From an uncultured Gammaproteobacteria bacterium (GTDB lineage: Bacteria; Pseudomonadota; Gammaproteobacteria; Arenicellales; JAANXG01): 43,096 bases of DNA. The first letter of the stretch is position 1, and each line of letters opens with the position of its first letter. The DNA lies in the NCBI GenBank assembly GCA_947259175.1, contig CAMYKW010000032.1, positions 1 through 43,096 of the forward strand, read 5' to 3'. The translations under genes and the position numbers were made by a program. This document shows, one piece after another, positions 21,497 through 37,627 of this stretch. A model generated the notes under the pieces. The model had not been told where the DNA came from. It saw only the letters and a list, made by a program, of their open reading frames with translations, and made no database searches.

Positions 21497-22324
21497 CTAG
21501 TCGAGGCGTTGATATTCCTGCTGCACGACCTCGGCGCCGTAGGTGCGTTCCAGACGCCGCACCGTGAAATGGCCGTGGGCGACATGTTGAAAGTGATCGA
21601 GAAAGATGACGTTGATCATCGCCGCGCCCCCGGCGCCGATCAACGGGATGACCTGTGCGGCCGCCTTGTTGCTCAACGCCGCGCCGAAACGCGATGCGAC
21701 CGTCTCCACCAGGCTCAGCAGTGCGGGAGAATCGCCGCCCAATCCGGAACCGGCCAGGTGCCGCGCCGCGGACGCAACCGGCACCGCCAGCGCCAGACGC
21801 ATGCCGTAATATCCGGTATCCGCCGCGTCATCCGCTTCCGTTCTGCCGCCCAAGGCGAACACCTCGACGCAAGCCAGGCGCGTATCCACCGATGTGAGAT
21901 CCTCCCCTTCGCTATGCGCTATTTCGCCGATGGTACGCAACATAATCACCGTCGACACCGGCATCTCGATCAACATCGCCGGCAATCCGAAAAAGCCCCC
22001 GAAGGCTCCGGTGCAGGCACCCATCAGTTTGTGCATACCGTTATACGGTTCGGTTTGGGGTACCGGATTGATTGACGTCATTGCGGCCTCCAGCGCCTTC
22101 TTGATAGCCTTGTCGGCGGTGGCGTTCAACGCGTCGGACCAGCGGCGCGGCAACAGCTTCAAAGCAATTTCAATCGGTGTACCGACAACGCTGGTCAGCC
22201 GGGCGGCAAGGCTGGGATGCTCCAATTGTTGGTGTGCGCGCCGCAACGCCCGCACGTCATCGGGAGCGATGATAGGGTGCACATTATTAGCCGGGCGAGT
22301 GGAGCTGGATTCTGACGTCGTCAT
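21497..22324 (-). CDS. EcsC-family protein
   Basis: A 275-residue protein with the EcsC-type layout: a charged N-terminal helix region (ALRRAHQQLEHPSLAARL), then GxPIEIALKLLP, and amphipathic/hydrophobic segments rich in Gly/Ala (LMGACTGAFGGFFGLPAML, GAGGAAMINVIFLDHFQ). The biochemical role of the family is unknown; Bacillus EcsC is encoded with an ABC transporter, and several relatives sit beside membrane ATPases, as here. The ATG at 22322-22324 is preferred to a TTG three codons earlier. Its start codon is only 15 bp from the divergent HMA-like gene. Confidence 0.85.
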   Translation of the reverse strand: MTTSESSSTRPANNVHPIIAPDDVRALRRAHQQLEHPSLAARLTSVVGTPIEIALKLLPRRWSDALNATADKAIKKALEAAMTSINPVPQTEPYNGMHKLMGACTGAFGGFFGLPAMLIEMPVSTVIMLRTIGEIAHSEGEDLTSVDTRLACVEVFALGGRTEADDAADTGYYGMRLALAVPVASAARHLAGSGLGGDSPALLSLVETVASRFGAALSNKAAAQVIPLIGAGGAAMINVIFLDHFQHVAHGHFTVRRLERTYGAEVVQQEYQRLD

Positions 22325-22339
22325 GAGGTTCAATTAGAT

Positions 22340-22633
22340 ATGAAGATTGCGGAAGGAATCAAGGTTTCCAGCTTCATTCCCGGGAGGTTGCGCCTCAAAG
22401 TCAATGAGCTTCATGACAATCCGGAGTTGGCAGAACAGGTTGAGCGCAAGCTGTCCGGCGTCGCGGGGGTCAAGGGCGTCCAGGCCAATCCGGTCTCCGC
22501 GTCGCTGTTGGTGAAATACGACAGGAAGACCATCGCTGAAGCACACGCAGTAGAAGCCCTGTCGAAGGCGCTGAAGGCGCTGTTTCCGCAGCTCGATGTC
22601 GACGCGGTGATCAGCCGTTTCATCGACACGTAA
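22340..22633 (+). CDS. HMA-like (HMA2-type) domain protein without CxxC
   Basis: A 97-residue cytoplasmic protein with a predicted ferredoxin-like beta-alpha-beta-beta-alpha-beta fold: SSFIPGRLRLKVNEL, helix DNPELAEQVERKLSG, strands VKGVQANPVSASLLVKY, then a helical tail. It resembles the HMA2 type that accompanies or precedes P-type ATPases but lacks the CxxC metal site. GAGGTT lies 9 bases before the ATG. It begins a three-gene rightward unit and shares its GR-R-V-NP pattern with two other proteins of this locus. Confidence 0.8.
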   Translation: MKIAEGIKVSSFIPGRLRLKVNELHDNPELAEQVERKLSGVAGVKGVQANPVSASLLVKYDRKTIAEAHAVEALSKALKALFPQLDVDAVISRFIDT

Positions 22634-22657
22634 GATATCGCAGACGAGAGGAATCAC

Positions 22658-22963
22658 ATGGTTGTAAAGACTGGAGAAATCATCACCGGAGTGGCGGTTG
22701 GCATCGGGCTCATCGCGATCACTCCGCTGGTGTTGCCCGTAGCGGCGGCTCTCGCCGGTCCCATGGGTCGGGCGGCAGCGAAGACCGGCAGCCTCTTATA
22801 CGAAAAGTCCCGTGAAACCTTCGCCGAACTGGGCGAGGTGGTGGACGATTTTGTCGCCGAAGCCAAGGACGCATGGGAACAGCAGGGTACACAGGGAGAC
22901 GCCGACGCCGGGGCGGACTTGACCGGCGACGGCGACGGCGGCACCGCAGAGCTTAGCCATTGA
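22658..22963 (+). CDS. DUF5132-like small membrane-associated protein
   Basis: A 101-residue protein: a hydrophobic N-terminal segment (GEIITGVAVGIGLIAITPLV, then VAAALAG) followed by an amphipathic helix (ESRETFAELGEVVDDFVAEA) and a Gly/Asp-rich acidic tail. The layout matches DUF5132, a small family found next to HMA2-domain and P-type ATPase genes; the name is from pattern recall. GAGAGG lies about 9 bases upstream of the ATG. The stop TGA at 22961-22963 overlaps the TTG start of the next gene. A membrane accessory of the ATPase is a reasonable guess. Confidence 0.7.
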   Translation: MVVKTGEIITGVAVGIGLIAITPLVLPVAAALAGPMGRAAAKTGSLLYEKSRETFAELGEVVDDFVAEAKDAWEQQGTQGDADAGADLTGDGDGGTAELSH

Positions 22964-23418
22964 CGGCTCCTGTCGCATTGATTGAGCACGCCCTCACCGG
23001 GCGCACGCGCATGCGCGTTAAAGCCATGCGCGGGAACCCGGACTATTTTGCCACCCTTGAAGATAATCTTGCGCGCTGCGCCGAGGTGCGGCGGGTTCGC
23101 TGCGATCCGCGGACAGCCGGGGTCCTGCTGCACCATCTACCGGACAGCCTGTCCACAATCGCGACCACCGCCAGCGAAAATGACTGGTTCGACCTCCGCG
23201 GTTCCGCCACCGCGCATTCGTTTGCGCTCGCGCCTCGCATCACGCCCCCCAGTCCCAGGCTCTTGCTCGCCGGCTTGTTTGGCGGCCTGGCGGCGATCCA
23301 GACTCTGCGCGGCGACGTCATGGCGCCCGCCACCAGCATGTTTTGGTACGCGGCAACCCTGCTTCCCGCCATCGACGGGGATTATCCCGCATCGGACGGC
23401 GCCGCGGACGGCCGCTGA
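22960..23418 (+). CDS. Membrane-anchored HMA-like protein
   Basis: A 152-residue protein. Residues about 8-65 repeat the HMA-like pattern (TGRTRMRVKAMRGNP, then CAEVRRVRCDPRTAGVLLHH) without a CxxC pair. A C-terminal hydrophobic region (LLLAGLFGGLAAIQ and SMFWYAATLLPAI) would form one or two membrane helices. The TTG start (22960-22962) overlaps the upstream stop as TTGA, which suggests translational coupling; no ATG lies close downstream. Its last 37 bp overlap the 3' end of the convergent ATPase gene. Confidence 0.7.
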   Translation: MTAPVALIEHALTGRTRMRVKAMRGNPDYFATLEDNLARCAEVRRVRCDPRTAGVLLHHLPDSLSTIATTASENDWFDLRGSATAHSFALAPRITPPSPRLLLAGLFGGLAAIQTLRGDVMAPATSMFWYAATLLPAIDGDYPASDGAADGR

Positions 23419-26400
23419 GCGAGGAATTTAGTCGCCTCGTTCACCACCAGCGGCAGCACCGCGCCGCCGATGGTCACCGCCAACTCGCTTCCCGCTAACG
23501 GTACCGTACCCAGCACGCGGCGCAATCCTGGAACCAGCAAGGTCAAGGCCTGTGCCGCCAGCGACGTCCCGATAGCCACGTCCAACACGCGGTTTCGCGC
23601 CGAAAGGCCATCGCGCGTAAACATCGTCGCCCGGTCGGAACGGCAGTGGTAGGCGTGCAGCAGCTGCGCCATGGTCAGGGTGGTAAAAGCGCAGGTGCCG
23701 GCACTCGCCGCCGTTCCGCCCTTCCACAGGGTGTAGGAGTAACTGCCCAAGGTGCCCGCGGTGATCGCCACGGATTCCGCGGCGATCCGCTTCAGTTCCC
23801 TGGCGCCAATGATCGCGTCTCCGGGTTCGCGCGGCGGCCGCCGCAATACATCGGGCTCCGGCCTTTCGAATGACAACGCCAATCCCGGGAACACGTCGGT
23901 GGCGAGATTGATCCACAGCAGCTGCATGGGATTCAGTGGACGCCCCAAACCGGTCGCGAGCGCGGCCAGCATGAACAGCACCTCGCTGAAATTCGTTGCC
24001 AGCAGGAAATGCAGCGACTTGCGGATATTGGCGTACAACATCCGGCCTTCCTTGACTGCAGTGATCATGGTGGACAGATTGTCATCCTCCAGCACCACGT
24101 CCGATACCGAGCGAGCCATGCCGCTGCCGCCATCGCCCATCGCGATGCCGACGTTGGCCGCCTTCAGCGCCGGACCGTCGTTGATGCCGTCCCCGGTCAT
24201 CGCGACCACCCTTCCGGCCGCCTGCAGGTTCTTGACGATTTTCAATTTCTCCGCGGGCGTCACACGAGCGAAGACGTGGGCCCGGTCGATTCGATGCGCC
24301 ATGGGCCCATGGGACGGCTCGTGCAGTTCGCTCGCCTTGATCACGTTGAGAGTGCCGCCCCAGCTCAATCTCAGTTGCGTTCCGATCGCGTGCGCCGTAG
24401 TCGCTTGATCGCCGGTGATCATCTTGGTGGCAATACCGGCGTCATGAAACGATGCAATGAGTTGACGGATGCCGTCCCTCACCGGGTCCGCCATACCCGC
24501 CAAACCGAGCCATATATAGTGCTCTTTGGGCGGATGCATGACGTCGTTGTCGACGTAGCGATAGGCAATGCCCAGCACGCGCAGCGCGTCCTCCGCCATT
24601 CTTGCGTTGGCGGCAATCACCGATGCCCGAAACGCGTCGCCGATCTCGTAAACGTCTTTTCCCACGCGATAATGGCTGGACATCGCCAGCACGTCTTTCG
24701 GTCTGCCTTTGAGCGCGACGAGCATTTTCGGTCCTTCGTTGCCGTGCACGGTGATCATGTACGGGCGCCCCTCGGCCCGGTACTGGGTGTGCAGCAGGGT
24801 GTACCGCGCCCGCAGTGCGGTGATGTCGAGCTGCGCACGGTGGGCGGCGTCCAACAATGCCGTTTCCGTGGCTGAACCGCGATAAATGGGTTCTTCCGCC
24901 GTCCCTGCGACATCCGCCTCGTTGCACAGCGCCGCCACCGTCAATAACCGAATGAACAGCGGATCGTCGCCGATCGCCACGGCGTCATCGCTATCGGCTT
25001 CGAAGAAGCCTTCGGAGTGAACCGCGATTTCCCGTCCAGCCCCGTACAACCTGACCACGCGCATCTCGTTCAACGTCAGCGTCCCCGTTTTGTCGAAACA
25101 CATGACGCTCACCGAACCCAGCGTCTCAACTGCATCCAGGCGCCGAATCAATACCTTGCGCCGCCGCATGTCCCGAATTCCGAGAGCCAGAGAACTGGTG
25201 GCCACGGCGGGAAGGCCCTCCGGAACCGCGGCGACGCCCAGCGATATCGCGGTCTTCAGCATCTGTGACACGCCGTACCCGCGGGCGGCGCCGGCAAAGA
25301 AGGCCACGACGCACAGCACCGCCGAACCCAGCGCCAGACGGGTCCCCAGGGTGTCGAGTTGGCGTTGCATCGGGGTGGCCGGAGGCCGCGCCGCACCCAC
25401 CATCGCCTGGATGCGGCCCGTTTCAGTCGCCGGACCGGTCGCAACCGCGAGGCCCAATGCCCCGCCTCCGGTCACCGTGGTGCCGCTGTACAGCATGTTG
25501 GCGCGTTCGGCCAGGGGCGCGGCGTCCGTCCCTACCCAGCGGTGCGACTTTCCGACCGGTTCGCTCTCCCCCGTCAACAGAGACTCGTCGACGGTGAGCC
25601 GCTGCGACTCGATCAGACGGATGTCGGCAGGCACGTAGCTGCCTGGTCGCAACAGCACGACGTCTCCGGGAACCAGCTCGTCGGCCGCAATCTCCGCCAG
25701 CTTGCCACCGCGCCGCACCAGGACATGTTCCGGCGTGAAACGCGTCAACGAAGCGATGGTGCGATCCGCGAACCGTTCCGTGGCAAAACCGATTCCCGCA
25801 TTCAGCATTACCACGGACCCGATCACCAAGGCGTCCAAAATACCGCCGGACAGGACGGCGACCGCGGCCGACACCCCCAACATCGCCACCGGCCAGCTTC
25901 GGAACTGGTTCAAAAACAACATCAGATCCGACGTGCCGTCGATGGAATCAAGGCGGTTCATGCCGAATTGCTGACGGCGCTGTTGGACGACCGTCGCGGG
26001 CAACCCTCCCACCGTATCGGATGCGAATGTCGCAACCACTTCGTCCGGCGACATGCAATGCCAGTCGCGCTGTTGAGACTGCGTATGCCGGGGCCGTTTT
26101 CGCTGTGGGGATCTCGATCCACGGCGCCGACGCGCCGTGTGCGAACGGGGAACGGGTATGAATCCCATGGCATCAAGCCATGCCGAAGCCGCCTCCTGCA
26201 CAACCCGTTGCCGTATCCCTTGATTGGCTATCCCTTTGCGCACCCGCAGCAGCACCGTGCCGGTAACCGTGCTCGCATCGATCGACGTGAAAAACCCGGT
26301 CGCGTTCAAGCGTGACGCCAAGGCGCGTTTGAAAGCGGGATTATCCCGCAAGCCGGAAACGCTGCAACGCAAGCGCCCGTTGCCGGTTTCACTGACCACG

Positions 26401-26465
26401 AAAGCGAAGAAATCAACCGGGGCATGGCGGGCGTCATCGCTTGCGGAAAGGTCTACCGTCGTCAT
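23382..26465 (-). CDS. P2A-type cation-transporting ATPase with N-terminal HMA-like domain
   Basis: A 1027-residue pump. N-terminal residues include an HMA-like domain (NGRLRCSVSGLRDNP) and an Arg/Lys/Gln-rich linker. The ATPase core follows: cation_ATPase_N, actuator LTGES, AVPEGLP in helix 4, phosphorylation site CFDKTGTLT, TGDQATTAHAIG, and MTGDGINDGPALK. The Ca2+-site II residues of SERCA seem conserved: Glu in PEGLP, Asn and Glu in TNFSEV, Asn-Thr-Asp in NLATDVFP. This points to Ca2+ (or Mn2+) export rather than a P1B heavy-metal pump. ATG at 26463-26465 is preferred; a TTG 26 codons upstream (26541-26543) is open. It is flanked by accessory genes on both strands. Confidence 0.9.
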   Translation of the reverse strand: MTTVDLSASDDARHAPVDFFAFVVSETGNGRLRCSVSGLRDNPAFKRALASRLNATGFFTSIDASTVTGTVLLRVRKGIANQGIRQRVVQEAASAWLDAMGFIPVPRSHTARRRRGSRSPQRKRPRHTQSQQRDWHCMSPDEVVATFASDTVGGLPATVVQQRRQQFGMNRLDSIDGTSDLMLFLNQFRSWPVAMLGVSAAVAVLSGGILDALVIGSVVMLNAGIGFATERFADRTIASLTRFTPEHVLVRRGGKLAEIAADELVPGDVVLLRPGSYVPADIRLIESQRLTVDESLLTGESEPVGKSHRWVGTDAAPLAERANMLYSGTTVTGGGALGLAVATGPATETGRIQAMVGAARPPATPMQRQLDTLGTRLALGSAVLCVVAFFAGAARGYGVSQMLKTAISLGVAAVPEGLPAVATSSLALGIRDMRRRKVLIRRLDAVETLGSVSVMCFDKTGTLTLNEMRVVRLYGAGREIAVHSEGFFEADSDDAVAIGDDPLFIRLLTVAALCNEADVAGTAEEPIYRGSATETALLDAAHRAQLDITALRARYTLLHTQYRAEGRPYMITVHGNEGPKMLVALKGRPKDVLAMSSHYRVGKDVYEIGDAFRASVIAANARMAEDALRVLGIAYRYVDNDVMHPPKEHYIWLGLAGMADPVRDGIRQLIASFHDAGIATKMITGDQATTAHAIGTQLRLSWGGTLNVIKASELHEPSHGPMAHRIDRAHVFARVTPAEKLKIVKNLQAAGRVVAMTGDGINDGPALKAANVGIAMGDGGSGMARSVSDVVLEDDNLSTMITAVKEGRMLYANIRKSLHFLLATNFSEVLFMLAALATGLGRPLNPMQLLWINLATDVFPGLALSFERPEPDVLRRPPREPGDAIIGARELKRIAAESVAITAGTLGSYSYTLWKGGTAASAGTCAFTTLTMAQLLHAYHCRSDRATMFTRDGLSARNRVLDVAIGTSLAAQALTLLVPGLRRVLGTVPLAGSELAVTIGGAVLPLVVNEATKFLAQRPSAAPSDAG

Positions 26466-26644
26466 GTTTATGCATTCATCAACAATTGTGCCGCCTGGTC
26501 GCCGAGACACGAGCGGGCGGGAACTTCCCTGTGCTGTTCTCAATGATATAGAACTGCACGTTGCCGGGATTGATCCACGTCATAGAATCGCAGCCTCATT
26601 CAGGTAGATTATGAGTTTACGACAACATCCCCTGAGAGACCGCA

Positions 26645-27190
26645 ATGGCGAAGAGAAAAACCAAAGCGAAATCCCGAACCCTGCTCGATGACGTTGAAGA
26701 CACCGCGTCGAGCGTGCTGGATCACGCCCACCAGCTTTTCGATCAATTAACGCAGCAAGTCTCCGCCACAGCAAATGCGGTTGCCGCGAAGACCTCGGGC
26801 GTAAGCGATTCGGTCCGGGGCGCCGAGAGCAGCGTGCGCCAAACCGTATTGGATCTGGCTTCTGAAGTTGAGCATGCCGGACAGGAGATGGCGCAGCAGG
26901 CCCTAAACCTGTTTGATTCACTGAAACAAAAGGTGGTTTCGGCGGAGCCACCCAAAGCAAAGAAAAAAATTGCCGGAAAGACCGCGACCAAGAAAAAGGT
27001 CAAGGCCAAGAAAAAGGTCAAGGCCAAGAAGAAGGTCAAGGCCAAGAAGAAAAAAACCAAGAAAAAGGCAACCAAGCAACCTTCCCGCGCGGCGAACAAG
27101 ACATCCAAACGGGCGGTGAAAAAATCTCCAAAGAAGGCGGCTAAAAAGATTCGATCCGCAAAGACCCGCAAGGTGTCGAAGAAAAAGTAG
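26645..27190 (+). CDS. Histone H1-like Lys-rich protein with helical N-terminal domain
   Basis: A 181-residue protein in two halves. Residues 1-100 form a long amphipathic helix region (DVEDTASSVLDHAHQLFDQL, SVRQTVLDLASEVEHAGQEM) of the kind seen in phasin-like and coiled-coil proteins. Residues about 103-181 are a Lys/Ala/Thr tail resembling eukaryotic H1 and bacterial AlgP- or PhaM-type tails, including three KVKAKK repeats. DNA or polyanion binding is expected. It is convergent with ppk, so binding polyphosphate is conceivable but is inference. The Shine-Dalgarno is weak (GAGAG). Confidence 0.8.
   Translation: MAKRKTKAKSRTLLDDVEDTASSVLDHAHQLFDQLTQQVSATANAVAAKTSGVSDSVRGAESSVRQTVLDLASEVEHAGQEMAQQALNLFDSLKQKVVSAEPPKAKKKIAGKTATKKKVKAKKKVKAKKKVKAKKKKTKKKATKQPSRAANKTSKRAVKKSPKKAAKKIRSAKTRKVSKKK
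26988..27041 (+). repeat. Three tandem 18-bp repeats coding KVKAKK
   Basis: CCAAGAAAAAGGTCAAGG occurs at 26988-27005 and 27006-27023 identically, then at 27024-27041 with one change. A partial fourth unit follows. It sits in the Lys-rich tail and is prone to expansion or contraction. Confidence 0.9.
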
Positions 27191-27360: not shown

Positions 27361-29601
27361 CTACGGGGCGCGTTGAAGCTTACCGGCTTTGGTTTTCTTG
27401 TGTGCGCGCGCGGCTTTGGCGCGTTTTTTCGCCAGCTTGATCAGCATGGCCTGACTGCTCAGGGCGTCTTCCTGCTGCGGGACGCACTGCACGTATGTTC
27501 CGTCCGGCTGCATATCCCAGGCACTGCGCTGATCGCCGAGTTGGGCATCGATTATTTCGCGCAAACGGGCTTGTAGCTCGGGCGCCTCCACCGGGGCAAC
27601 CACTTCGACCCGGGACTCCAAGTTGCGCTTCATGCAGTCTGCCGATCCGATGTAGTACTCTTCTTGTCCCCCGTTGCGAAAGTAATAGATGCGGGCATGT
27701 TCAAGAAAGCGTCCGACTATACTTACCACCCGCACCGTCTCCGAAAGCCCGGGGATGCCGGGACGCAGGCGGCAAGTGTCGCGCACGATGAGATCCACTT
27801 TGACGCCGGCTTGGGAGGCTTGATAGAGCGCCCGGGTCACATCACGGTCCTCCAGCGCGTTCATCTTGAACTGAATCAAACCATCGCCGTGCTTCCGGTT
27901 ACGATCGATCTCCCGCTCGATCTTATCCAGCAACGCACGCTTGAGCACCTTGGGCGCGGGAAGTATCTTCCTGTATTTTCGCTTCAGCACGTGTCCTGTG
28001 GTCAGGTAATTGAACAACTCCGTTAGATCCTCACCGATCACGGGATCGCAGGTGAACATGCCGAGATCGGAATATATCCTCGCGGTTTGCGCGTGATAGT
28101 TGCCGGTGCCAATATGCGCGTAGCGGCGTAGACCGTCGAAGTCACGGCGCAGAACGAACACCAGCTTCGAGTGGGTCTTCAGTCCGATTACGCCATAGGT
28201 CACGTGAATGCCGGCTTCCTCGAGATAGTTCGCCCAGCGTATGTTGGCCGATTCGTCGAACCGCGCCTTGAGCTCCACGCACACCGCCACCTGTTTGCCG
28301 TTCCTGGCCGCTTCGATCAAATATTCGATAATCTTGGATTGTTCGCCGGTGCGGTAAATAGTCATCTTGATCGCCAACACCTTCGGGTCCCGGCTTGCTT
28401 CCCTCACGAAGCGCTCCGTTGAGGTCAAGAAGGATTCGTACGGGTGTTGCACCAGAATCGGACCTTGGTCGCGAATCAGATGGAACATGTTGATCGCCTT
28501 GGACATCGCCGGGTGATCAACAGGATGGTGCGGCGGATCGTGCAGGTCCCCCCGGTTGATGCCCGCGAGTTGCCACAGATCAACCTTGCCCATCAACCCG
28601 TCAACTTCGAACACGTCCGCCTCTTCGTTCAGACCCAATTCCGAGGCCAACATGCCCCGGCACGCGGCATCCATTTCCTTGGAAACTTCCAACCGCACGA
28701 TGGGTGCGAATTTCCGGTCGCGCAGTTCCGACTCGATCATGACGAGCAGGTCGTTGGCCTGCTCCTCCGCTGGTTCGGCGATGGCGTTTCGGGTCACGCG
28801 AAACAATTCACACGACTCGATGATCATGCCCGGCAGCAACAGATCGAGATTGTTGGCGATTACGTCCTCCAGGGGCACGAACAGATGATCTTTTCCTACC
28901 TGCAGGAATCGTTGCACGCCGGCGCCCACCGGAACCTTGACGCGCACCAGACCGGTCTTTGCCTGCTCCGGATAGCGGACCGTTAACAGCAGATTCAACG
29001 ACAGGTTCGAAATGAACGGAAACGGATGGGCGGGGTCGATCGACAGCGGCGTGATCAAGGGAAAAATATTCTCGATGTACTCCTTGCCCACCTGTTCACG
29101 TTGTTGTTCGGACAAGTTCTTATAGCCACGAACGAAAATTTCCTGTTGCTTCAACGCGGCATGCAGTTCGACGGCAAGCGCCCGCTGCTGTTCCTCCAAC
29201 TCCACGACGACGGCATGGCACTCGTCGATCTGCCTCTCGGGCGTGCGGCCGTCCACGCTCAGTTGCGTAACCCCCGCACCGACCTGCTGCATCAGACCGC
29301 CGATGCGCTTCATGAAGAACTCGTCCAGGTTCGCCGAAACTATGGCCAGGAACTTCACCCGCTCCAGCAACGGCGTGCGCGGATCCTGGGCTTCGTGTAA
29401 GACGCGACAGTTGAACTCCAGCCACGTCAATTCGCGGTTCAGGTACCATTCGGGCGAGTCGAGGTCGATGCGCTGCGCCTCGCGGCGAGCGGCCCGGTCC
29501 TGTGGTGTTTCGGCCCGCGGGCCGGCGGGATGCGGTGAGCGCACAGGCGGCGAGTCGGCTTCCGCGGCGGAAAGTGAGGGCTTGGTGGCGTCGGTATCCA
29601 T
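27361..29601 (-). CDS. ppk: Polyphosphate kinase 1
   Basis: It reversibly polymerises the gamma-phosphate of ATP into long-chain polyphosphate at the inner membrane face. The 746-residue protein has the PPK1 N-domain (YLNRELTWLEFNCRVLHEA, SANLDEFFMKRIGGL), middle domain (FPLITPLSIDPAHPFPFISN) and two C-terminal PLD-like domains with HPYESF, GLKTHSKLVFVLRRD (the conserved His-Lys segment that holds the phospho-acceptor His), THIGTGNYHAQTA-like YAHIGTGNY and YIGSADCMKRNLESRVEV. The ATG at 29599-29601 removes a non-conserved 39-residue extension. A basic Lys-rich tail ends the protein. It lies 207 bp downstream of phoU on the same strand. Confidence 0.97.
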   Translation of the reverse strand: MDTDATKPSLSAAEADSPPVRSPHPAGPRAETPQDRAARREAQRIDLDSPEWYLNRELTWLEFNCRVLHEAQDPRTPLLERVKFLAIVSANLDEFFMKRIGGLMQQVGAGVTQLSVDGRTPERQIDECHAVVVELEEQQRALAVELHAALKQQEIFVRGYKNLSEQQREQVGKEYIENIFPLITPLSIDPAHPFPFISNLSLNLLLTVRYPEQAKTGLVRVKVPVGAGVQRFLQVGKDHLFVPLEDVIANNLDLLLPGMIIESCELFRVTRNAIAEPAEEQANDLLVMIESELRDRKFAPIVRLEVSKEMDAACRGMLASELGLNEEADVFEVDGLMGKVDLWQLAGINRGDLHDPPHHPVDHPAMSKAINMFHLIRDQGPILVQHPYESFLTSTERFVREASRDPKVLAIKMTIYRTGEQSKIIEYLIEAARNGKQVAVCVELKARFDESANIRWANYLEEAGIHVTYGVIGLKTHSKLVFVLRRDFDGLRRYAHIGTGNYHAQTARIYSDLGMFTCDPVIGEDLTELFNYLTTGHVLKRKYRKILPAPKVLKRALLDKIEREIDRNRKHGDGLIQFKMNALEDRDVTRALYQASQAGVKVDLIVRDTCRLRPGIPGLSETVRVVSIVGRFLEHARIYYFRNGGQEEYYIGSADCMKRNLESRVEVVAPVEAPELQARLREIIDAQLGDQRSAWDMQPDGTYVQCVPQQEDALSSQAMLIKLAKKRAKAARAHKKTKAGKLQRAP

Positions 29602-29808
29602 GGTGGGTGCGCAGTCGTCGGATTGCCGAGTTAGTATATCGCGCTTATGTTGTATGATGCTGCCGGAGTTCGGCGTAAAAATCTGGCGTAACCAACGTCG
29701 GCGGCAAACCTGTCGCAATCCAGGGCGTATCTTGCAGCAGCCGGCCGAGTCCCTGCAGTAACTCGATCTAATGGCGTATCGACCCGCCGGGGGCCTGTGC
29801 CGCCCGGT

Positions 29809-30549
29809 CTATTTCTGCGTGGGTTTCGAATCGGCCTGTTGCTTTAATTCCGCCTGGACTTGCTCCCAACTGGTATGCCGGACGTCTTTGCCCTTGACCA
29901 GGTACACCACGTATTCACAGATGTTTTTCGCTCGGTCGGCGATCCGTTCCAAGGAACGCGCAGACCACATGATTTCCAGGGTACGCGGTATGTGGCGCGG
30001 ATCTTCCATCATAAAGGTGATCAACTGTCGCATGATGCTCTCGTATTCCCGATCGACTTCGCTGTCATACGCCCGCGTGCGAACCGCGGCTTCGACATCG
30101 GTTCGCGCGAAGGTATCCAGTGCGTTATGCACCATCTCTTTCACCAAATCGCCCAGATGCCGTAGCTCTCGGTATTGATCTTTGGGTGGTTCACGCTGTG
30201 CCAACCGGATTGCCATATGGCCGACGCGTTCCGCTTCATCGCCCATGCGTTCCAAGTCGGTAATGGTCTTGATCACCGCGACCAGGAATCTCAGATCGCT
30301 GGCCGCCGGCTGCCTTCTGGCCAAGATCCAGGCACACTCCTCATCGATTTCCACTTCGAGCGCGTTAACCTTGTAGTCGTCGTTGACCACCGACTCGCCG
30401 ATTGCGCTATCACCCTCCATTATCGAGGTGAGGGCGTCGGCAAGCTGCTTCTCCACTAACCCGCCCATGGTTAGGACCTTATTGCGTATGTCTTCCAGCT
30501 CAGCGTTGTATTGCTGCGAGGTGTGATGACTGATGTCGATGGTTTTCAT
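29809..30549 (-). CDS. phoU: Phosphate signalling protein PhoU
   Basis: The 246-residue all-helical protein dampens PhoR activation by the Pst transporter and limits phosphate uptake. It has the two PhoU repeats with their metal-cluster motifs: [15 protein letters not shown] and [24 protein letters not shown] in the first, [19 protein letters not shown] and [22 protein letters not shown] in the second. The ATG at 30547-30549 is the family start ([18 protein letters not shown]). Unlike the enteric pstSCAB-phoU order, it is divergent from pstS and in line with ppk. Confidence 0.97.
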
Positions 30550-30642
30550 GGTCGTCTATTCGAAAATCGAAGCAAGATTGATCCAGATCATGAGATAGTG
30601 CCAGGGTTTTGTGACAACTCTATTACCGAGTTAGCCGGCGTT

Positions 30643-30648
30643 ATTATA
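30643..30648 (-). promoter_or_regulatory. Candidate -10 of phoU
   Basis: A perfect TATAAT on the reverse strand, about 95 bp before the phoU ATG. Upstream of it on that strand AGTCATATTT (around 30654-30666) resembles half a Pho box at the -35 position. Confidence 0.4.
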
Positions 30649-30713
30649 GTACCAACTGAAATATGACTAGCAACACCCTGAATTAACGCGGGTTACTTAA
30701 TAATGATACGCCA

Positions 30714-30734
30714 TTGTCATATTTTGGTCACATC
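30714..30734 (+). promoter_or_regulatory. Pho box upstream of pstS
   Basis: TTGTCATATTTTGGTCACAT matches the PhoB consensus of two 11-bp direct repeats (TGTCATA then GTCACAT) at nearly all informative positions. It lies about 130 bp before the pstS GTG. A weak -10 (TACAAC, 30742-30747) follows at the spacing seen in PhoB-activated promoters. Confidence 0.75.
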
Positions 30735-30861
30735 TAAATCGTACAACACAGCTCGCCAGCATGACTAATGTGCTACGTCACATTGCTTTAACAACCGTCA
30801 TGTACAAGGCGCGAGACGTTTTAACAAACTGCGAGACGCATCAACCAGTGGAGATTTTGTT

Positions 30862-31908
30862 GTGATCAGACTGAAACACACTATCCCCTTCATACTTTCC
30901 GTGGCGGCCACCGCTTCTGTATTCGCCGCCGGGCGTGACTACATCAGTATCGTCGGCTCGTCGACGGTGTATCCCTTCGCGACAGTGGTTGCCGAGCAGT
31001 TCGGCAGGTCATACGGTGTGAAGACTCCCAAAGTGGAATCCACCGGCTCCGGAGGCGGCATGAAGCTGTTTTGCGCCGGGGTGGGCGTGGAACATCCGGA
31101 CATCACCAATTCCTCGCGGCGTATGAAAGCGTCCGAGTTCAAGAAATGTCTGGCGAACGGCGTGACCGGTATCATCGAAGTCAAGATTGGTTACGACGGC
31201 ATCGTTCTGGCGAACTCAAAGCGGTCTCCTCAAATGAGCGTGTCGCGCAAGGATATCTATCTGGCGCTGGCCAAGGAGATCCCGGATCCGAGCGGCGCCG
31301 AAAAACTGATAGCGAATCCACACAAGACATGGAAGGACGTCAATTCGAGCTTGCCGGCAAACAAAATCGAGGTCCTCGGACCGCCACCCACCTCCGGCAC
31401 CCGGGACGCATTCGTCGAGCTGGCGATGGAAGGCGGTTGTAGTCATTTCGCGTGGATCAAGGCGATGAAGAAGCAAGACAAGAAAAAGTACAAATCGATG
31501 TGCCACACCATCCGCGAAGACGGCGCGTTCGTTGAGGCGGGCGAGAATGACAACCTGATCGTACAGAAATTGGAAGCCAACCCCAAAGCGTTTGGCGTGT
31601 TTGGTTTCAGCTTCCTGGACCAGAATGCCGACAAGGTCCAGGGCTCCCTGGTCGACAACAAGGCGCCGTCGTTTGAAAACATCGCCGATGGCAACTATAC
31701 AATTTCGCGCCCGCTGTACTTCTATGTCAAGAAGGCCCATGTTGGCGTCATCCCGGGAATCAAGGATTTTCTCGCCGAGTTCACCAGCGACAAAGCCTGG
31801 GGAGACGAAGGTTACCTGTCCGACAAGGGCTTGATCCCTATGCCCGAGCAAGAGCGTGGGAAATTCGCGTCCGATGTCCGTGCCTTGAATGTCTTGAGTT
31901 CTCTGTAG
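30862..31908 (+). CDS. pstS: Phosphate-binding periplasmic protein PstS
   Basis: The substrate-binding component of the high-affinity phosphate ABC importer. The 348 residues start with a signal peptide (MIRLKHTIPFILSVAATASVFAA), then ISIVGSSTVYPFATVVAEQF (phosphate-binding Ser/Thr loop), ESTGSGGGMKLFC, NSSRRMKASEF, GYDGIVLANS and PPPTSGTRDAFVELAM with the Ser-Gly-Thr-Arg phosphate contact. It has no lipobox, so it is soluble in the periplasm. GTG at 30862 has GGAG 8 bases upstream and places the signal peptide correctly. First gene of pstSCAB, behind a Pho box. Confidence 0.97.
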   Translation: MIRLKHTIPFILSVAATASVFAAGRDYISIVGSSTVYPFATVVAEQFGRSYGVKTPKVESTGSGGGMKLFCAGVGVEHPDITNSSRRMKASEFKKCLANGVTGIIEVKIGYDGIVLANSKRSPQMSVSRKDIYLALAKEIPDPSGAEKLIANPHKTWKDVNSSLPANKIEVLGPPPTSGTRDAFVELAMEGGCSHFAWIKAMKKQDKKKYKSMCHTIREDGAFVEAGENDNLIVQKLEANPKAFGVFGFSFLDQNADKVQGSLVDNKAPSFENIADGNYTISRPLYFYVKKAHVGVIPGIKDFLAEFTSDKAWGDEGYLSDKGLIPMPEQERGKFASDVRALNVLSSL

Positions 31909-31974
31909 CGATTCGATGATAATCCGCGGCCACGGACGGCTGCGGATTTCTATTTTCACAGTAATATCTCGATC

Positions 31975-33357
31975 GTGTCGACGCCCTTACTCATAGCTGT
32001 ACTCTTGTTGCTTGCGGCCGCGGCCTTTGAGTTCGGACGTCGTCGAGCGCTGCAAGTAGCGGGACCCGAATTCCGGACACTTCATTCACTACCCCGTTAT
32101 TACGGTTCGTACACCGCGCTCTGGTGCGCGCTACCTGCGCTAATATTATTGGGCGCATGGCTGGCTTTCGAGGACAAGATAATCACCATCTTGGTCATCG
32201 CTGATCTGCCCGCCGCGTACCAATCGCTGTCGGAACCGGAACTCAACCTGATCGTCAACGATCTGCGCAATCAGCTGTCGGGTAATGTGGTGTCTCGGGA
32301 ACTGAACCTCGACATGCAAGCCGCCGTGAAGCACTACGGAAGTCTCAGAGCCACCAGCAAGGCGGCGTTGGCGGTGATATTCCTGTCGGTTGCCATGCTT
32401 GGGATGGGACTGGCATGGCGCAAGATTGCACCCGATTTCTGGGCGCGTAACCGTGTTGAGGCAATCGTTAAGGTTTTGCTAATCATCTGTTCGACCCTTG
32501 CCATCTTCACCACCATCGGCATCGTCCTATCGGTGCTGTTCGAATCCATTCGCTTCTTTCGAGCGGTGCCGGTATTCGATTTTCTGTTCGGACTCGAATG
32601 GAGCCCGCAGACCGCCATCCGCGAAGACCAGGTGGGATCCTCCGGGGCTTTCGGGGCAGTTCCGCTATTCGCCGGCACGCTTTTGATCTCCTTGATCGCC
32701 ATGCTGGTCGCGGCGCCGGTCGGATTGACGTCAGCGATCTACCTGTCCGAATACTCACATCCACGTTTTCGCGCGGCCGCAAAACCGTTGTTGGAAATCT
32801 TGGCCGGTATCCCAACCGTGGTCTACGGTTTTTTCGCGGCATTGACGGTGGCGCCGCTGATCAGAGATGCGGGCACCAATTTCGGTCTCGACGTGTCGTC
32901 CGAGAGCGCGCTCGCCGCCGGTTTGGTCATGGGAATCATGATTATTCCGTTCGTCTCGTCGATCTCCGACGACGTCATCAATGCCGTTCCGCAATCGTTG
33001 CGAGACGGATCTCTCGCGCTGGGGTCAACTCAGTCCGAAATGATCCGCAAGGTTGTTCTGCCAGCGGCCTTGCCGGGCATTGTCGGCGGCCTGCTGCTTG
33101 CAATCTCCCGGGCAATTGGCGAGACCATGATTGTGGTCATGGCCGCGGGCCTCGCCGCGAACTTGACCGTGAATCCTCTCGAGGCAGTGACCACGGTAAC
33201 CGTTCAGATCGTCACGTTGTTGGTCGGCGACCAGGAATTCGACAGCCCAAAAACTCTCGCTGCTTTTGCGCTGGGACTGATGTTGTTCTTGGTGACCCTG
33301 GCACTCAACGTGATAGCGTTGTATGTGGTCCGAAAGTACCGCGAGCAATACGAATGA
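31975..33357 (+). CDS. pstC: Phosphate ABC transporter permease PstC
   Basis: A 460-residue inner-membrane permease, longer than E. coli PstC (319) because of an N-terminal membrane segment and a periplasmic region (about residues 75-125). The binding-protein-dependent transport domain is in the C-terminal half: GAVPLFAGTLLISLIAMLVAAPVGL, ILAGIPTVVYGFFA, and the EAA-type loop around ALGSTQSEMIRKVVLPAALPGIVGG that contacts PstB. The GTG at 31975 fits the family start MSTPLLIAVLLLLA. Its stop overlaps the pstA start as ATGA. Confidence 0.96.
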   Translation: MSTPLLIAVLLLLAAAAFEFGRRRALQVAGPEFRTLHSLPRYYGSYTALWCALPALILLGAWLAFEDKIITILVIADLPAAYQSLSEPELNLIVNDLRNQLSGNVVSRELNLDMQAAVKHYGSLRATSKAALAVIFLSVAMLGMGLAWRKIAPDFWARNRVEAIVKVLLIICSTLAIFTTIGIVLSVLFESIRFFRAVPVFDFLFGLEWSPQTAIREDQVGSSGAFGAVPLFAGTLLISLIAMLVAAPVGLTSAIYLSEYSHPRFRAAAKPLLEILAGIPTVVYGFFAALTVAPLIRDAGTNFGLDVSSESALAAGLVMGIMIIPFVSSISDDVINAVPQSLRDGSLALGSTQSEMIRKVVLPAALPGIVGGLLLAISRAIGETMIVVMAAGLAANLTVNPLEAVTTVTVQIVTLLVGDQEFDSPKTLAAFALGLMLFLVTLALNVIALYVVRKYREQYE

Positions 33358-34634
33358 CACCAACAACCGCAGACAAGATTCAGGCCGGTCTCAAGAAGCG
33401 CTACGCCGCCGAGCGCCGGTTCCGCGGCTACGGGTTGGTTTCCGTGACCATCGGCCTCGCCGCGTTGTTGCTTTTGTTTGTAAGCATCATCGGTAATGGA
33501 TATAGCGCATTCCAACAGACCTTCGTTAAGCTCGACGTGCAATTCGATGAGGCGGTCATCGATCCAAAAGGAACACGTGACCCGCAGAGCCTGGCCCGTG
33601 CGGACTATGGACAGTTGATCAAGAAAACGATGCGCGAACTTTTTCCCGAGGTAAAGAACCGGCGTGACAAACGCAAACTTTATAAACTGGTTAGCCCCGG
33701 CGCGGTGTTCATACTCCAGGACATGGTGCGCAAGGATCCAGAACTCATCGGAACCTCGCAAACGGTGTGGGTCCCGGCCGATGACGATGTTGATATGCTC
33801 ATCAAGGGCTACATCGACCGCGACGTCCCGGAATCGGCACGACGCTTGAATGACAAGGAGATTGCCTGGATCGATGCCCTCGCTGCAACCGGCAGCCTGG
33901 AAAAACGGTTCAACAAGATATTTTTTACTGCCGGGGATTCTCGCGAGCCGGAGTTGGCCGGTATCTGGGGGGCGGTGGTCGGCTCATTCTATACTCTGGT
34001 GGTGACCCTGGCATTGTCGTTTCCCATCGGTGTCGCCGCTGCCGTATATCTCCAGGAATTCGCGCCCAGGAACCGATGGACCGACTTTATCGAAGTCAAC
34101 ATCAACAACCTCGCGGCGGTGCCCTCCATCGTGTTTGGACTACTGGGGTTATCGGTGTTCTTGAATTTTATGTCCCTACCCCGCTCAGCGCCCTTGGTGG
34201 GCGGACTGGTGTTGAGTCTGATGACTCTGCCGACCGTGATCATCGCCAGTCGCGCGTCGCTGCAATCGGTGCCACCATCGATTCGCGAAGGCGCATTAGG
34301 CATGGGTGCGTCGCAAATGCAAATGGTCGCGCATCACGTCTTGCCGCTGGCGATGCCGGGAATGTTGACTGGTACTATTATTGGCATGGCCAGGGCTTTG
34401 GGTGAATCCGCGCCCCTGCTCATGATTGGGATGGTCGCCTTTATCGTGAATGTCCCCGAAGGACCGTTGGACCCATCGACAGTGTTGCCGGTGCAGATTT
34501 ACTTGTGGGCGGACACCCCAGAAAGAGCGTTTGTCGAGCGTACTTCGGCGGCGACCCTGGTCCTGCTCGCGTTTTTGGTAATTATGAACGGCGCCGCAGT
34601 GTGGTTGCGTAAGCGATTTGAGCAACGCTGGTAG
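33354..34634 (+). CDS. pstA: Phosphate ABC transporter permease PstA
   Basis: A 426-residue partner permease of PstC. Helix 1 is at about 27-47, followed by a large extracytoplasmic region of about 150 residues (50-200) seen in long-form PstA, then five helices with [41 protein letters not shown] and the coupling loop [24 protein letters not shown]. The ATG at 33354 overlaps the pstC TGA by four bases (ATGA), which decides the start; a much longer open frame upstream runs antiparallel in phase with pstC and is spurious. Confidence 0.96.
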
Positions 34635-34660
34635 CAACTGAGTTTAGTGAGGTAATATCC

Positions 34661-35539
34661 GTGCTCAATCAAAAACAAGCTGTACTCTTGGAACGTCCAG
34701 CCAAAACAAATGACGTCTTGCCGTCAGCACCCGTGAAGATCCAGGATACCGATACCAAGACCGTCGGGCAGGTAACCGTGGACAAACCGATCATGACCAC
34801 ACGGAACGTGGATGTCTACTACGACGACAAGCAAGCCATTAGAAATGTCAGTATCGACATCGCCTACAACGAAGTGTTGTCGATGATCGGACCGTCGGGT
34901 TGTGGTAAGTCAACGTTCTTGCGATGCCTGAACCGAATGAACGATACCATCGAATCGGCGCGTGTCACAGGCAGTATCGAACTGGAAGGCCATGACATCT
35001 ACGACAAGAAGACCGATGTCGTAACCCTGCGCGCCCGCGTCGGGATGGTGTTCCAGAAACCCAATCCGTTTCCGAAATCGGTGTATGAAAACGTCGCGTA
35101 CGGTCCGCGCATTCATGGCCTGGCGCGAAATCAATCGGAGTTGGACGAAATCGTGGAAACCAGCCTGCGACGTGCCGGCCTCTGGGACGAGGTCAAAGAT
35201 CGGCTCCGGGAACCTGGCACCGGCCTGTCCGGCGGTCAGCAGCAACGGCTGTGCATCGCGCGGTGCATCGCAGTAAATCCGGATGTCATCCTCATGGATG
35301 AGCCCTGCTCCGCGTTGGATCCCATTGCCACCGCAAGGATCGAAGAATTGATTGATGAATTGCGGCAAAACTACTCCATCGTCATCGTCACGCACTCCAT
35401 GCAGCAGGCTGCCCGTGTTTCCCAACGCACCGCTTACTTTCATCTAGGTGACTTAATTGAGGTCGGCGAGACCTCAATCATCTTCACCAATCCCCAGCAC
35501 AAGCTTACCGAAGACTATCTCACCGGAAGATTTGGCTAG
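34661..35539 (+). CDS. pstB: Phosphate ABC transporter ATP-binding protein PstB
   Basis: The ATPase subunit of the Pst importer. In 292 residues it has Walker [10 protein letters not shown] (77-85), the Q-loop ([18 protein letters not shown], hallmark PstB), signature [13 protein letters not shown], Walker [14 protein letters not shown] and the H-loop [14 protein letters not shown]. An N-terminal extension of about 45 residues precedes the usual start. The GTG at 34661 has GAGG 8-10 bases upstream; an internal ATG ([13 protein letters not shown], residue 45) could give a normal-length protein. Last gene of pstSCAB. Confidence 0.97.
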
Positions 35540-35542
35540 TTC

Positions 35543-35587
35543 GGACGAAGGAGAAGTCCCGTACGGTTCTACGCTCGTCCTGTTTTT
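35543..35587 (+). terminator. Terminator of the pst operon
   Basis: GGACGA (35543-35548) pairs with TCGTCC (35575-35580). An inner AGAA/TTCT stem around a CCGTACGG-containing loop adds to the structure, and TGTTTTT follows. It begins 4 bp after the pstB stop, between convergent pstB and phoR. Confidence 0.7.
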
Positions 35588-35606
35588 GCGATTGGTTGAA
35601 GGTAGA

Positions 35607-36920
35607 TTAGGCGGAGGACGGCAACGCGTCCTTAATGACAACGTGCCGCGATGGAAAAGTACAAGAAAATTGCGATCCCTTGTCGATTTCGCTCTCAATA
35701 AAAAGCCGGGCATCATGCCGTAACAATACGTGCTTTACGATGGCCAGCCCCAGGCCGGTGCCTCCAAGATCGCGGGAGCGCGCGGTATCCACGCGGTAGA
35801 ATCGCTCGGTGAGTCGCGGTATGTGCTCGGGTTGAATGCCGGGACCTGTGTCGCTGACCGAAAATCTGGCGTCCGAATCTCTAACAAACCAACGAATGGT
35901 TATAGTTCCACCTGCAGGCGTATACTTCACGGCGTTAATCACTAAATTGGAGAATGCGCTGTACAGTTGATTGAAGTGCCCTCGAAGAAACAGCGTGTTA
36001 TCCAAATCGACATGCATATCATGTTTTTGGTTACTCAATTCCAGGGCTTCACCGTAGATTGATCTGATCAGGGACGGAACATCGACCACGGAAGGATTAG
36101 TATTGGGCCCGGTTTCCAAATTGGATAATTCCAGCAGATCTTCAACGATACGGCACATGCGGTCGGTTTGCTGGTCGACCTGAGACAACGCCTTCTTCCA
36201 CTTGAGCCCGAACTCGCCGGTATCATCCAACATCGATTCCACATATCCCTTGATGACGGTAAGGGGAGATTTCATCTCATGGGAAACGTTTGCGACGAAA
36301 TCACGCCGGATCTCTTCCAGTTTGTGCAGCCTGGTAACGTCACGAACTAGAAGCAGCTTTTTGTACGCATCTCCGTATGGAACAACGGTAATCGACAGAT
36401 GAAAGCTATGATTAACCGGGGATGGAAGCTCCAGTGGCTGGGAGAAATCGCGTTCAGCCAGATACTTCAAGAAGTCCGGGTCGCGGATTAGATTGGTAAT
36501 TGTACTCCCCATATCCTGTGGATCCTTCAAACCCAACAGCGCGGTCGCGTTCTCGTTTATCAATTCGATTTCGTCGTTCGCGCCCAGTGTCACAGCGCCA
36601 TCGGGTAATATCATCGTTGCCTGACGGTATCGCTCCAATTCCTGTTGCAACTTGTCCATGTCGTTTTGATGCTTCTTCGTCAAGCCACGCAGGCGGTCGT
36701 ACACGATTCCCCATATACCGACACCTTCGGGGATCGCGGAAGTATCGCGCTCAGAAGACCAACGCGCGAGTCGCGTCAGACAGTAGACATGCCAAGCCAG
36801 ATACGAAAGCGCACCTAGCAATAACGCCGTCTTGTAGTCACTGATGACAGCCCCCAGTACCAGGGCCGCTATAACGAGAATCAGAATACGCCAGGCTTCA
36901 GCTTTCCAAAATCCAATCAT
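35607..36920 (-). CDS. phoR: Phosphate regulon sensor kinase PhoR
   Basis: A 437-residue membrane histidine kinase. Two closely spaced transmembrane helices (about 11-28 and 31-48) leave almost no periplasmic domain, as in E. coli PhoR, which senses through Pst/PhoU. A PAS domain (about 95-190) follows, then the phosphoacceptor His214 in VSHEMKSPLTVIKGY and the ATPase boxes NLVINAVKYTP (N), DTGPGIQPEHI (G1), RFYRVD (F) and GGTGLGLAIVKH (G2). Its ATG overlaps the phoB TGA as ATGA, so the two are co-translated. Confidence 0.97.
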   Translation of the reverse strand: MIGFWKAEAWRILILVIAALVLGAVISDYKTALLLGALSYLAWHVYCLTRLARWSSERDTSAIPEGVGIWGIVYDRLRGLTKKHQNDMDKLQQELERYRQATMILPDGAVTLGANDEIELINENATALLGLKDPQDMGSTITNLIRDPDFLKYLAERDFSQPLELPSPVNHSFHLSITVVPYGDAYKKLLLVRDVTRLHKLEEIRRDFVANVSHEMKSPLTVIKGYVESMLDDTGEFGLKWKKALSQVDQQTDRMCRIVEDLLELSNLETGPNTNPSVVDVPSLIRSIYGEALELSNQKHDMHVDLDNTLFLRGHFNQLYSAFSNLVINAVKYTPAGGTITIRWFVRDSDARFSVSDTGPGIQPEHIPRLTERFYRVDTARSRDLGGTGLGLAIVKHVLLRHDARLFIESEIDKGSQFSCTFPSRHVVIKDALPSSA

Positions 36921-37627
36921 GCAGCAAGGCTCTGGGAGAATCGGTAACCGGCGCCGTGCACAGTCTGTATATGTCCGTCATAGCCATATGGCATCAGAGC
37001 CTTTCGCAGCCGACGTATATGCACATCCACGGTCCGTTCCTCGATGTACACATTTCTCCCCCACACCCGGTCCAGCAACTGGGAACGGTCGAACACGCGA
37101 TCCGGATGGGTCATGAAGAAATTAAGCAGGCGAAACTCGGTGGGGCCCAGTTTCACTTCGCTATTACCTACGGAAACCCTGTGACTGGCGGGGTCGAGAG
37201 ACAGGTGGTCGAGAGTCACCGGCTGTTTTCCCCCATGGACATTGGCGCGGCGCAACACCGCCTTGATGCGTGCGATTAACTCACGGGTCGAAAATGGCTT
37301 GCTGACATAATCGTCGATGCCGGCCTCGAAACCTCGGACCTTATCGTTTTCCTCGCCCTTGGCGGTCAACATGATGATCGGAATGTCCGCGGTGGCGTCA
37401 TCCCGTTTGAGCTGGCGCGCAAATTCTATCCCGCTCTGCCCGGGTAGCATCCAGTCGAGGAGGATCAGATCCGGTAAGCGATCACCGATCTGGTGAAGTG
37501 CGTTACCGGTTTCGGTGCATTCGATAACGCTGAAATCGGCGGCGGCGACAGAAGACGCCACCATTTCTCGAATTGCGGTGTCATCCTCAACGATAAGAAT
37601 CGTGTGCTGCATCGGTTTCTCGTTCAT
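36917..37627 (-). CDS. phoB: Phosphate regulon response regulator PhoB
   Basis: A 236-residue OmpR-type regulator. The receiver domain has Asp15/Asp16, phospho-acceptor Asp58 (LILLDWMLPG), Thr in IIMLTAKGEE and Lys in DDYVSKPFSTREL. The winged-helix domain ends with VWGRNVYIEERTVDVHIRRLRKAL, the PhoB recognition helix. Start ATG at 37625-37627; an internal ATG five codons on (37612) would give MQHTILIVEDD and is equally plausible. First gene of phoBR, behind its own Pho box. Confidence 0.97.
   Translation of the reverse strand: MNEKPMQHTILIVEDDTAIREMVASSVAAADFSVIECTETGNALHQIGDRLPDLILLDWMLPGQSGIEFARQLKRDDATADIPIIMLTAKGEENDKVRGFEAGIDDYVSKPFSTRELIARIKAVLRRANVHGGKQPVTLDHLSLDPASHRVSVGNSEVKLGPTEFRLLNFFMTHPDRVFDRSQLLDRVWGRNVYIEERTVDVHIRRLRKALMPYGYDGHIQTVHGAGYRFSQSLAA

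Follow-up and report, generated by a model that had tools for sequence, protein, structure and literature searches.

A locus on a contig of an uncultured Gammaproteobacteria bacterium (GenBank CAMYKW010000032.1; the window is the whole stretch analysed, 43,096 nucleotides) raises a question: what does a Ca2+-type pump do with a heavy-metal-associated (HMA)-like domain devoid of a CxxC motif, when two small proteins encoded beside it bear the same domain? The original prediction saw in it an uncharacterised pump complex, formed by the ATPase, the HMA-like proteins, EcsC and a DUF5132-like protein. The reading that we favour, and to which we give roughly an even chance, is that a P2A-type cation pump comes with its own membrane scaffold: the DUF5132 protein would be PacL-like, its acidic helix docking on basic faces of HMA_2 domains, and the pump would be clustered. 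The features concerned are the following.

22340..22633, forward strand: protein A, 97 amino acids, a stand-alone HMA_2 (CxxC-less HMA-like) domain (PF19991, 58.2 bits, cut-off 30)
22379-22423, forward strand: motif PGRLRLKVNELHDNP of protein A
22658..22963, forward strand: protein D, 101 amino acids, DUF5132 (PF17195, 35 bits, cut-off 25)
22960..23418, forward strand: protein B, 152 amino acids, an HMA_2 domain and a C-terminal helical pair (possible membrane hairpin)
22996-23040, forward strand: motif TGRTRMRVKAMRGNP of protein B
23382..26543, reverse strand: protein C, 1053 amino acids, a P2A-type (Ca2+-type) P-type ATPase that bears HMA_2 at its N-terminus
26181..26414, reverse strand: HMA_2 domain of ATPase C, residues 44-121
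about 26337-26381, reverse strand: motif NGRLRCSVSGLRDNP of ATPase C
21497..22333, reverse strand: protein E, EcsC family (PF12787, 88.5 bits, cut-off 30.4)

Genes A, D and B share one direction, the start of B overlapping the stop of D by 4 bases, and the gene of ATPase C runs towards that of B, with an overlap at the 3' ends. Gene E is divergent from A, and its start codon is uncertain because the longest open reading frame leaves only 6 bases to A. For ATPase C, the in-frame Met at position 26465 (residue 27 of the longest open reading frame, leaving 1027 amino acids) is a plausible true start. Proteins D and E both exceed the Pfam cut-offs, so that the DUF5132-like and EcsC labels were right.

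Do the three HMA-like segments really represent one domain? The peptides PGRLRLKVNELHDNP, TGRTRMRVKAMRGNP and NGRLRCSVSGLRDNP lie, as predicted, in A, B and ATPase C, respectively. Smith-Waterman scores compared with 2000 shuffles gave z values of 10.7 (A-B), 11.6 (A-ATPase) and 4.7 (B-ATPase), the real score being reached by 0, 0 and 3 shuffles; at the level of sequence, a chance likeness of the three segments is excluded. A comparison of profiles from three separately built alignments, which might have found them unrelated, related all pairs, with E values of 1.6e-17 (A-B), 3.5e-12 (A-C) and 1e-7 (B-C). Judged by these comparisons, all three segments are members of a single family, Pfam HMA_2. 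The domains of B and of the ATPase N-terminus, at 23.6 and 20.3 bits, do not reach the curated cut-off, which only A passes. Across the 4.18-Mb host genome, HMA_2 matches at E <= 0.001 number three, and they are A, B and ATPase C. None of the three matched the canonical HMA family PF00403 at E up to 1.

The prediction had also called these domains non-metal-binding. This held in that they carry no CxxC; the loss is not specific to the locus, being family-wide, with no CxxC in any of 44 non-redundant HMA_2 domains (13 from pumps, 31 others). What is conserved instead is basic: Arg occupies model position 17 in 44/44 domains and position 15 in 43/44, both in the first strand, and three further positions are mostly basic (68-82 percent). 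Net charge over the first 60 residues averages +3.7 in the pump domains and +3.4 in the others, with a range of -2 to +9. These counts were made with a hidden Markov model trained on domains from the same loci. Such domains have reportedly been named CoBaHMA (conserved-basic HMA-like domains), and for this reason we treat the HMA_2-type domain itself as known.

An AlphaFold2 model of B showed residues 1-80 in blocks with a predicted local distance difference test score (pLDDT) of 91-98, arranged strand-strand-helix-strand-strand-helix, and two helices of lower confidence (99-116 and 123-137). The same element order was repeated at residues 47-125 in a low-confidence model of the whole pump (mean pLDDT 64, predicted TM-score 0.54, 6 sequences), which was used solely for this purpose. 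Foldseek searches with B gave no match at E <= 0.001; ranks 1-9 were RNA polymerase subunit L, YbgJK and DNA gyrase chains, followed by ATP7B at rank 10 and MerP at rank 11 (TM-score 0.68 by target length, probability 0.99, E = 0.07). Because the HMA matches appear only from rank 10 on, the HMA fold of B rests more on sequence and element order than on this search. Among PDB sequences, the B-type domain profile had eight matches at E up to 1, namely five HMA (best 0.0042) and three HflX.

What kind of pump is ATPase C? The Cation_ATPase_N, E1-E2 and Cation_ATPase_C domains all exceed their Pfam cut-offs, which makes a full P2A core, and the best match in the PDB was SPCA1 (E = 5e-127), with Listeria lmo0841 entries next. 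In the 22 module pumps, which include the near-copy of genome G029, the following residues never vary: the Glu of PEGL, the Asn and Glu of membrane helix M5, and the Asn and Asp of M6. At the M6 Thr position 15 pumps have Thr and 7 have Ser; at the M8 position 18, the window pump included, have Gln and 4 have Glu. This assignment of the cation site follows SERCA numbering. SPCA1 has Ser and Ala opposite the M5 Asn and Glu of ATPase C. With its core domains above cut-off and cation-site residues present in 22/22 module pumps, the predicted P2A (Ca2+-type) pump was supported. Since these residues are mostly common to 12 other P2A pumps from the same genomes, they mark a Ca2+-type pump and not the module clade. 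Wherever the N-terminus of a module pump could be read (21 distinct pumps), it bore an HMA_2 domain, and at the ten other P2A pumps of genomes G000, G034, G038, G124, G507 and G509 HMA_2 was not matched at E <= 0.001, a threshold at which weaker domains can escape notice. The 22 module pumps grouped as a single clade (FastTree support 1.0, ultrafast bootstrap 100) in a 34-pump tree; two of the 24 PF00689 matches are omitted from this tree, that of L130 (motif not found) and that of L126 (partial).

Does the gene set hold together elsewhere? DUF5132 is rare: at E <= 0.001 it was found in 4/109 genomes of the window's order (3 passing the curated cut-off), 12/369 of its class (12 passing) and 3/398 across the phylum (2 passing), as well as in 6/61 genomes of the order of G124 (5 passing) and 4/385 of its class (3 passing), all counts including the genome of the window or of the search centre itself. 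A pattern scan of 84,980 species genomes yielded at least 10 confirmed loci, of which those of G029, G034, G039 and G124 had been found before; among the matches listed were metagenome-assembled genomes of Nitrococcus, Competibacteraceae, Chromatiaceae, Rhodovibrionaceae and Rhodospirillaceae. A Microvirga plasmid also bears the gene set: it was the one match of a plasmid search with B, and a plasmid search with DUF5132 gave no match, missing two Microvirga copies that were then found by local comparison. The gene set thus recurs across Gamma- and Alphaproteobacteria, contrary to the possibility that it would not co-occur in other genomes.

We compared the neighbourhoods of 30 genomes (module stretches of 5.8 to 24.5 kb) with 40 control stretches of 19.9 kb each, at hand-picked positions on large contigs from ten of these genomes. 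The P2A pump was present in 21/30 module loci versus 1/40 controls and EcsC in 15/30 versus 0/40 (p = 2e-7), far above control, as expected from the original prediction. A MetK-like gene (17/30, p = 1.5e-8), DUF445 and PHA_gran_rgn (5/30 each) and an MgtE-like gene (4/30) were likewise found in 0/40 controls. These p-values are optimistic, as related genomes were counted as independent (G000/G034/G038/G039; G124/G514/G508 with G519/G520; G685/G853). The frequency of DUF5132 in this comparison holds by construction because 27/30 genomes were gathered through it, the exceptions being the window, G038 (HMA_2 search) and Microvirga (B search). Outside the 30 stand G029, near-identical to the window locus, and G466, which has a DUF5132 match of 24.1 bits and no module gene in 16 kb. 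Two of the nine loci without a counted P2A pump have pieces of one: G510 has a C-terminal fragment hidden by the coverage filter, and in G038 the locus stops inside the pump's N-terminal HMA_2 domain at a contig end, a module-clade pump lying on another contig. As EcsC occurs in only half of the module loci, it is at most a candidate member of the complex. Because the pump and its two small neighbours share the HMA_2 domain and the gene set recurs in distant bacteria, we are probably dealing with a pump assembly of an unstudied kind.

What, then, might hold such an assembly together? The best candidate is protein D, in which a Gly/Ala-rich hydrophobic span precedes a stretch whose conserved acidic residues would line one face of a helix. 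Among 30 DUF5132 sequences from 29 genomes, all have a hydrophobic 19-residue span with a mean hydropathy of 1.8 or more (2.4 for the best span of the window protein). Residues E57, E60 and D64 are present in 30/30 and E68 in 29/29 ungapped sequences, and on a helix these four would lie within an arc of about 80 degrees on one face. Positions 11, 15 and 17 are occupied by Gly in 25-27 of the 30 sequences, and P35 is present in all. The D gene lies directly before B in 19/20 genomes in which the hairpin motif of B was matched, with a spacing of -7 to +65 bases. By its design (a predicted hydrophobic span, an acidic stretch and a gene linked to a P-type pump), D therefore qualifies as a candidate PacL-like scaffold. 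We suggest that D would work like a PacL protein and not that it is one, because DUF1490 was unmatched in Pfam.

The proposed mechanism is as follows. D would be held in the membrane by its Gly/Ala-rich span, with the acidic helix projecting into the cytoplasm, and its acidic stripe would dock on the basic face (GRxR) of HMA_2 domains, which would act here as docking modules and not as metal carriers. Three placements of HMA_2 are envisaged: built into the pump N-terminally, tied to the membrane in B through the helical pair, and free in soluble A. D and B, encoded by overlapping or nearly abutting genes, may form the platform; A may join it or contend for the same docking site, thereby determining the number of pumps that are clustered or active. 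EcsC, where present, would be an accessory. By analogy with PacL, D and B would cluster the pump and A modulate this clustering, and we infer the membrane topology, the contact between D and HMA_2, the clustering, the regulatory effect, the Ca2+ (or Mn2+) substrate and the localisation alike.

Among the closest known systems is the PacL1-CtpC zinc efflux platform of mycobacteria. PacL proteins bind the N-terminal (metal-binding) domains of their P-ATPases, the acidic residues of their AE repeats are needed for this binding, and conserved membrane residues are required for PacL clusters (PMC9374683, PMC13043812). What the two systems share is a P-type pump encoded together with a small membrane protein, in the case of D a predicted one, whose cytoplasmic part is acidic and contains Ala; in PacL1-CtpC this protein contacts the N-terminal domain of the pump, a contact which here is presumed (PMC9374683, PMC13043812). 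The differences are that PacL1-CtpC pairs DUF1490 with a P1B pump and the present module a DUF5132 scaffold candidate with a P2A pump, and that here additional proteins carry the same HMA-like domain as the pump. Reports of DUF1490 proteins come from Actinobacteria only (PMC9374683). With PMR1/SPCA, SERCA and Listeria lmo0841 (LMCA1), ATPase C shares the whole P2A core; unlike them it has an N-terminal HMA_2 domain, and unlike SPCA1 it has the M5 Asn and Glu. CoBaHMA and HMA_2 domains appear to have in common an HMA-like fold, no CxxC and conserved basic residues; the constant link to DUF5132 and to a clade of P2A pumps is what the present loci add. In a literature search of mostly open-access work, nothing was found on DUF5132, PF19991 or CoBaHMA, "HMA2 domain" appeared only for plant NLR receptors, no account joined three of the terms EcsC, P-type ATPase, HMA domain and calcium-transporting, and P2A/Ca2+-ATPase was paired with heavy-metal-associated only in unrelated classification work. 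The module, as distinct from the HMA_2-type domain, appears to be previously undescribed.

Several observations weigh against the scaffold reading. With E values up to 1 allowed, Pfam recognised in D only DUF5132, and neither DUF1490 nor DUF6110. The helical pair of B is only moderately hydrophobic (best 19-residue mean 1.28), which makes membrane anchoring of B uncertain. In Microvirga, 5.4 kb separate D and B. No P2A pump was found in 7/30 loci: in five of them the contig is short or its end is near (G511, G1142, G1133, G1066, G1239), G1043 has none within 10 kb on a 4.0-Mb contig, and in G862 a P1B-like pump with an N-terminal HMA_2 domain replaces the P2A pump, the DUF5132 match of that genome, 23 bits, being below the cut-off. 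The substrate is not fixed by family assignment because ATPase C missed the cut-off of the PMR1-type equivalog TIGR01522 in NCBIfam (569.7 versus 798.3 bits). The conserved arginines are subject to a bias, the domains having been gathered with a profile built from such domains, which favours arginines. Moreover, proteins sharing HMA_2 could pair mutually instead of with D, and the basic face could equally bind anionic lipid.

This last point leads to an unlikely alternative, in which the basic face of HMA_2 would gate the pump by binding the head groups of acidic phospholipids or else a polyanion, for example polyphosphate, the copies in A and B tuning the same signal and D being a mere membrane spacer. 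The two near-invariant arginines and the three mostly basic positions would fit such a lipid or anion sensor, CoBaHMA domains reportedly having been proposed to interact with anionic lipids, and one module locus (L176) encodes an apolipoprotein-like helical protein, below the Pfam cut-off. Such a sensor leaves unexplained the invariant acidic residues on one face of D and the adjacency of D and B.

Could HMA_2 still carry metal? It might be an unusual chaperone that binds the cation by non-cysteine ligands and hands it to the pump. Its position and element order equal those of P1B metal-binding domains, the model of B matches MerP as described above, and the A homologue of L060 barely passes the canonical HMA cut-off (24.9 versus 24.8 bits). 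We consider this quite unlikely and not a first choice, because no domain among the 44 has CxxC and because the conserved site residues are basic, which suits anions.

A distinctly doubtful alternative is that the pump fills an internal membrane compartment with Ca2+ and phosphate, in the manner of ferrosomes or acidocalcisomes, the HMA_2 and DUF5132 proteins shaping the compartment. We take FezB to be a P-type pump of the P1B-6 type and the ferrosome genes (FezA, FezB, FezC) to be clustered. Stand-alone HMA_2 domains, small Gly/Ala-rich proteins and a pump with N-terminal HMA_2 also occur with HN-motif P1B pumps (L047-L051). Published work names the HN motif as a P1B6 feature (PMC9374683), and further reports state that FezA and FezB are required for ferrosomes (PMC12574912) and call FezB a putative ferrous iron transporter (PMC10979944). 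As with FezA and FezB, both of which are needed there for one structure (PMC12574912), a pump here comes with a small, putative membrane protein. The differences are that the window pump is P2A, where FezB is presumed to be P1B-6, and that an organelle is here only a possibility.

The enrichment of PHA_gran_rgn noted above and the phosphate genes found near some modules also speak for a compartment, with a ppk and a phoU-pst cluster beside the window module, ppk-ppx-phoD in L060, phoU-pst in L172 and pstS in L173. Against it, phosphate genes were not significantly enriched (4/30 versus 1/40, p = 0.10; 7/30 versus 8/40, p = 0.48, with PstB and PhoD included), and ppk was within about 7 kb of the module in only 2/15 genomes, at about 48 kb in G514 and 0.9 Mb in G124. 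On these figures the phosphate/polyphosphate link, which had seemed conspicuous in the window, L060, L172 and L173, was dropped. A simple hydropathy count also found no span in most small proteins of L047-L049. A calcium organelle related to ferrosomes is thus possible but weakly supported.

The window stretch 27361-37627, directly beyond the ATPase, holds ppk, phoU, pstS, a pstA-like gene, phoR and a response regulator by Pfam, and pstC and pstB by reading; the second ppk of the host genome is on another contig. Between the ATPase and ppk (26645-27190) lies the gene of a lysine/alanine-rich histone-like protein. Its homology to the phasin-like proteins of L041 and L043 was rejected, as there was no BLAST cross-match at E 1e-4 and composition alone is similar.

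A broader version, very unlikely in our estimation, holds that an exchangeable chassis of HMA_2 and a small scaffold builds pump-loaded compartments in which the pump class sets the cargo, iron for P1B-6-like pumps and Ca2+ with phosphate or polyphosphate for the P2A clade. Taken together, L106 and L047-L051 suggest a pump-exchangeable chassis and bring up the organelle reading. L106 (9680-14952, in G862) has a DUF5132-like protein, HMA_2, EcsC and DUF445 around its P1B-like pump, in which transmembrane helix 4 reads DYGTG, with neither Cys-Pro-Cys nor the HN motif. The P1B pumps of L047-L051, with the HN motif and N-terminal HMA_2, stand beside more HMA_2 proteins, small proteins and Pro-Tyr-Gly-rich proteins; L058 has similar small genes, and no such HN-motif P1B pump was detected in its stretch. 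If the chassis reading were true, L106 would show pump exchangeability.

Finally, a plain Ca2+ efflux pump with unrelated genes travelling together by chance is highly improbable: P2A-type pumps are indeed common in bacteria (PF00689 in 10/14 control genomes), but the neighbourhood enrichment far above control, the D-B adjacency and HMA_2 on module pumps only all speak against it.

Some neighbours of the module deserve mention. A divergent paralog of MetK (S-adenosylmethionine synthetase) adjoins the pump in 12/16 genomes searched (L040, L052, L060, L062, L066, L092, L094-L096, L104, L105 and others). In a tree that omits one partial copy (L158), 12 module copies group apart from 16 ordinary MetK copies, and their consensus motifs are altered (DQG to QVT, DAKSQV to DGxxQV, GGGAFSGKDP to SGAALSGKxP). 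The window genome has two ordinary MetK copies elsewhere and none at the module. An Ala-rich helical family without Pfam match occurs near B (L060, 10929-11690; L104, 8404-9213; L105, 10613-11515; L173, 8585-9217). On the Microvirga plasmid, two CYTH-domain proteins are encoded upstream of two DUF5132 genes and the pump (L086, 538-2149). Other divalent-cation transporters, MgtE-like, of the Na/Ca exchanger family or MntP-like, lie near the module in L171, L176, L104, L105, L178 and L173.

If the compartment reading were true, the finding would concern bacterial storage of calcium with phosphate. Under the scaffold reading, a concrete role that experiments can probe falls to DUF5132 and to an HMA domain without a metal site, and since the two proposed partners carry conserved charges of opposite sign, a direct charge-swap test is possible. 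Scaffolded P-type platforms, described for the heavy-metal P1B pumps of mycobacteria, are thereby suggested also for calcium-type pumps of Proteobacteria.

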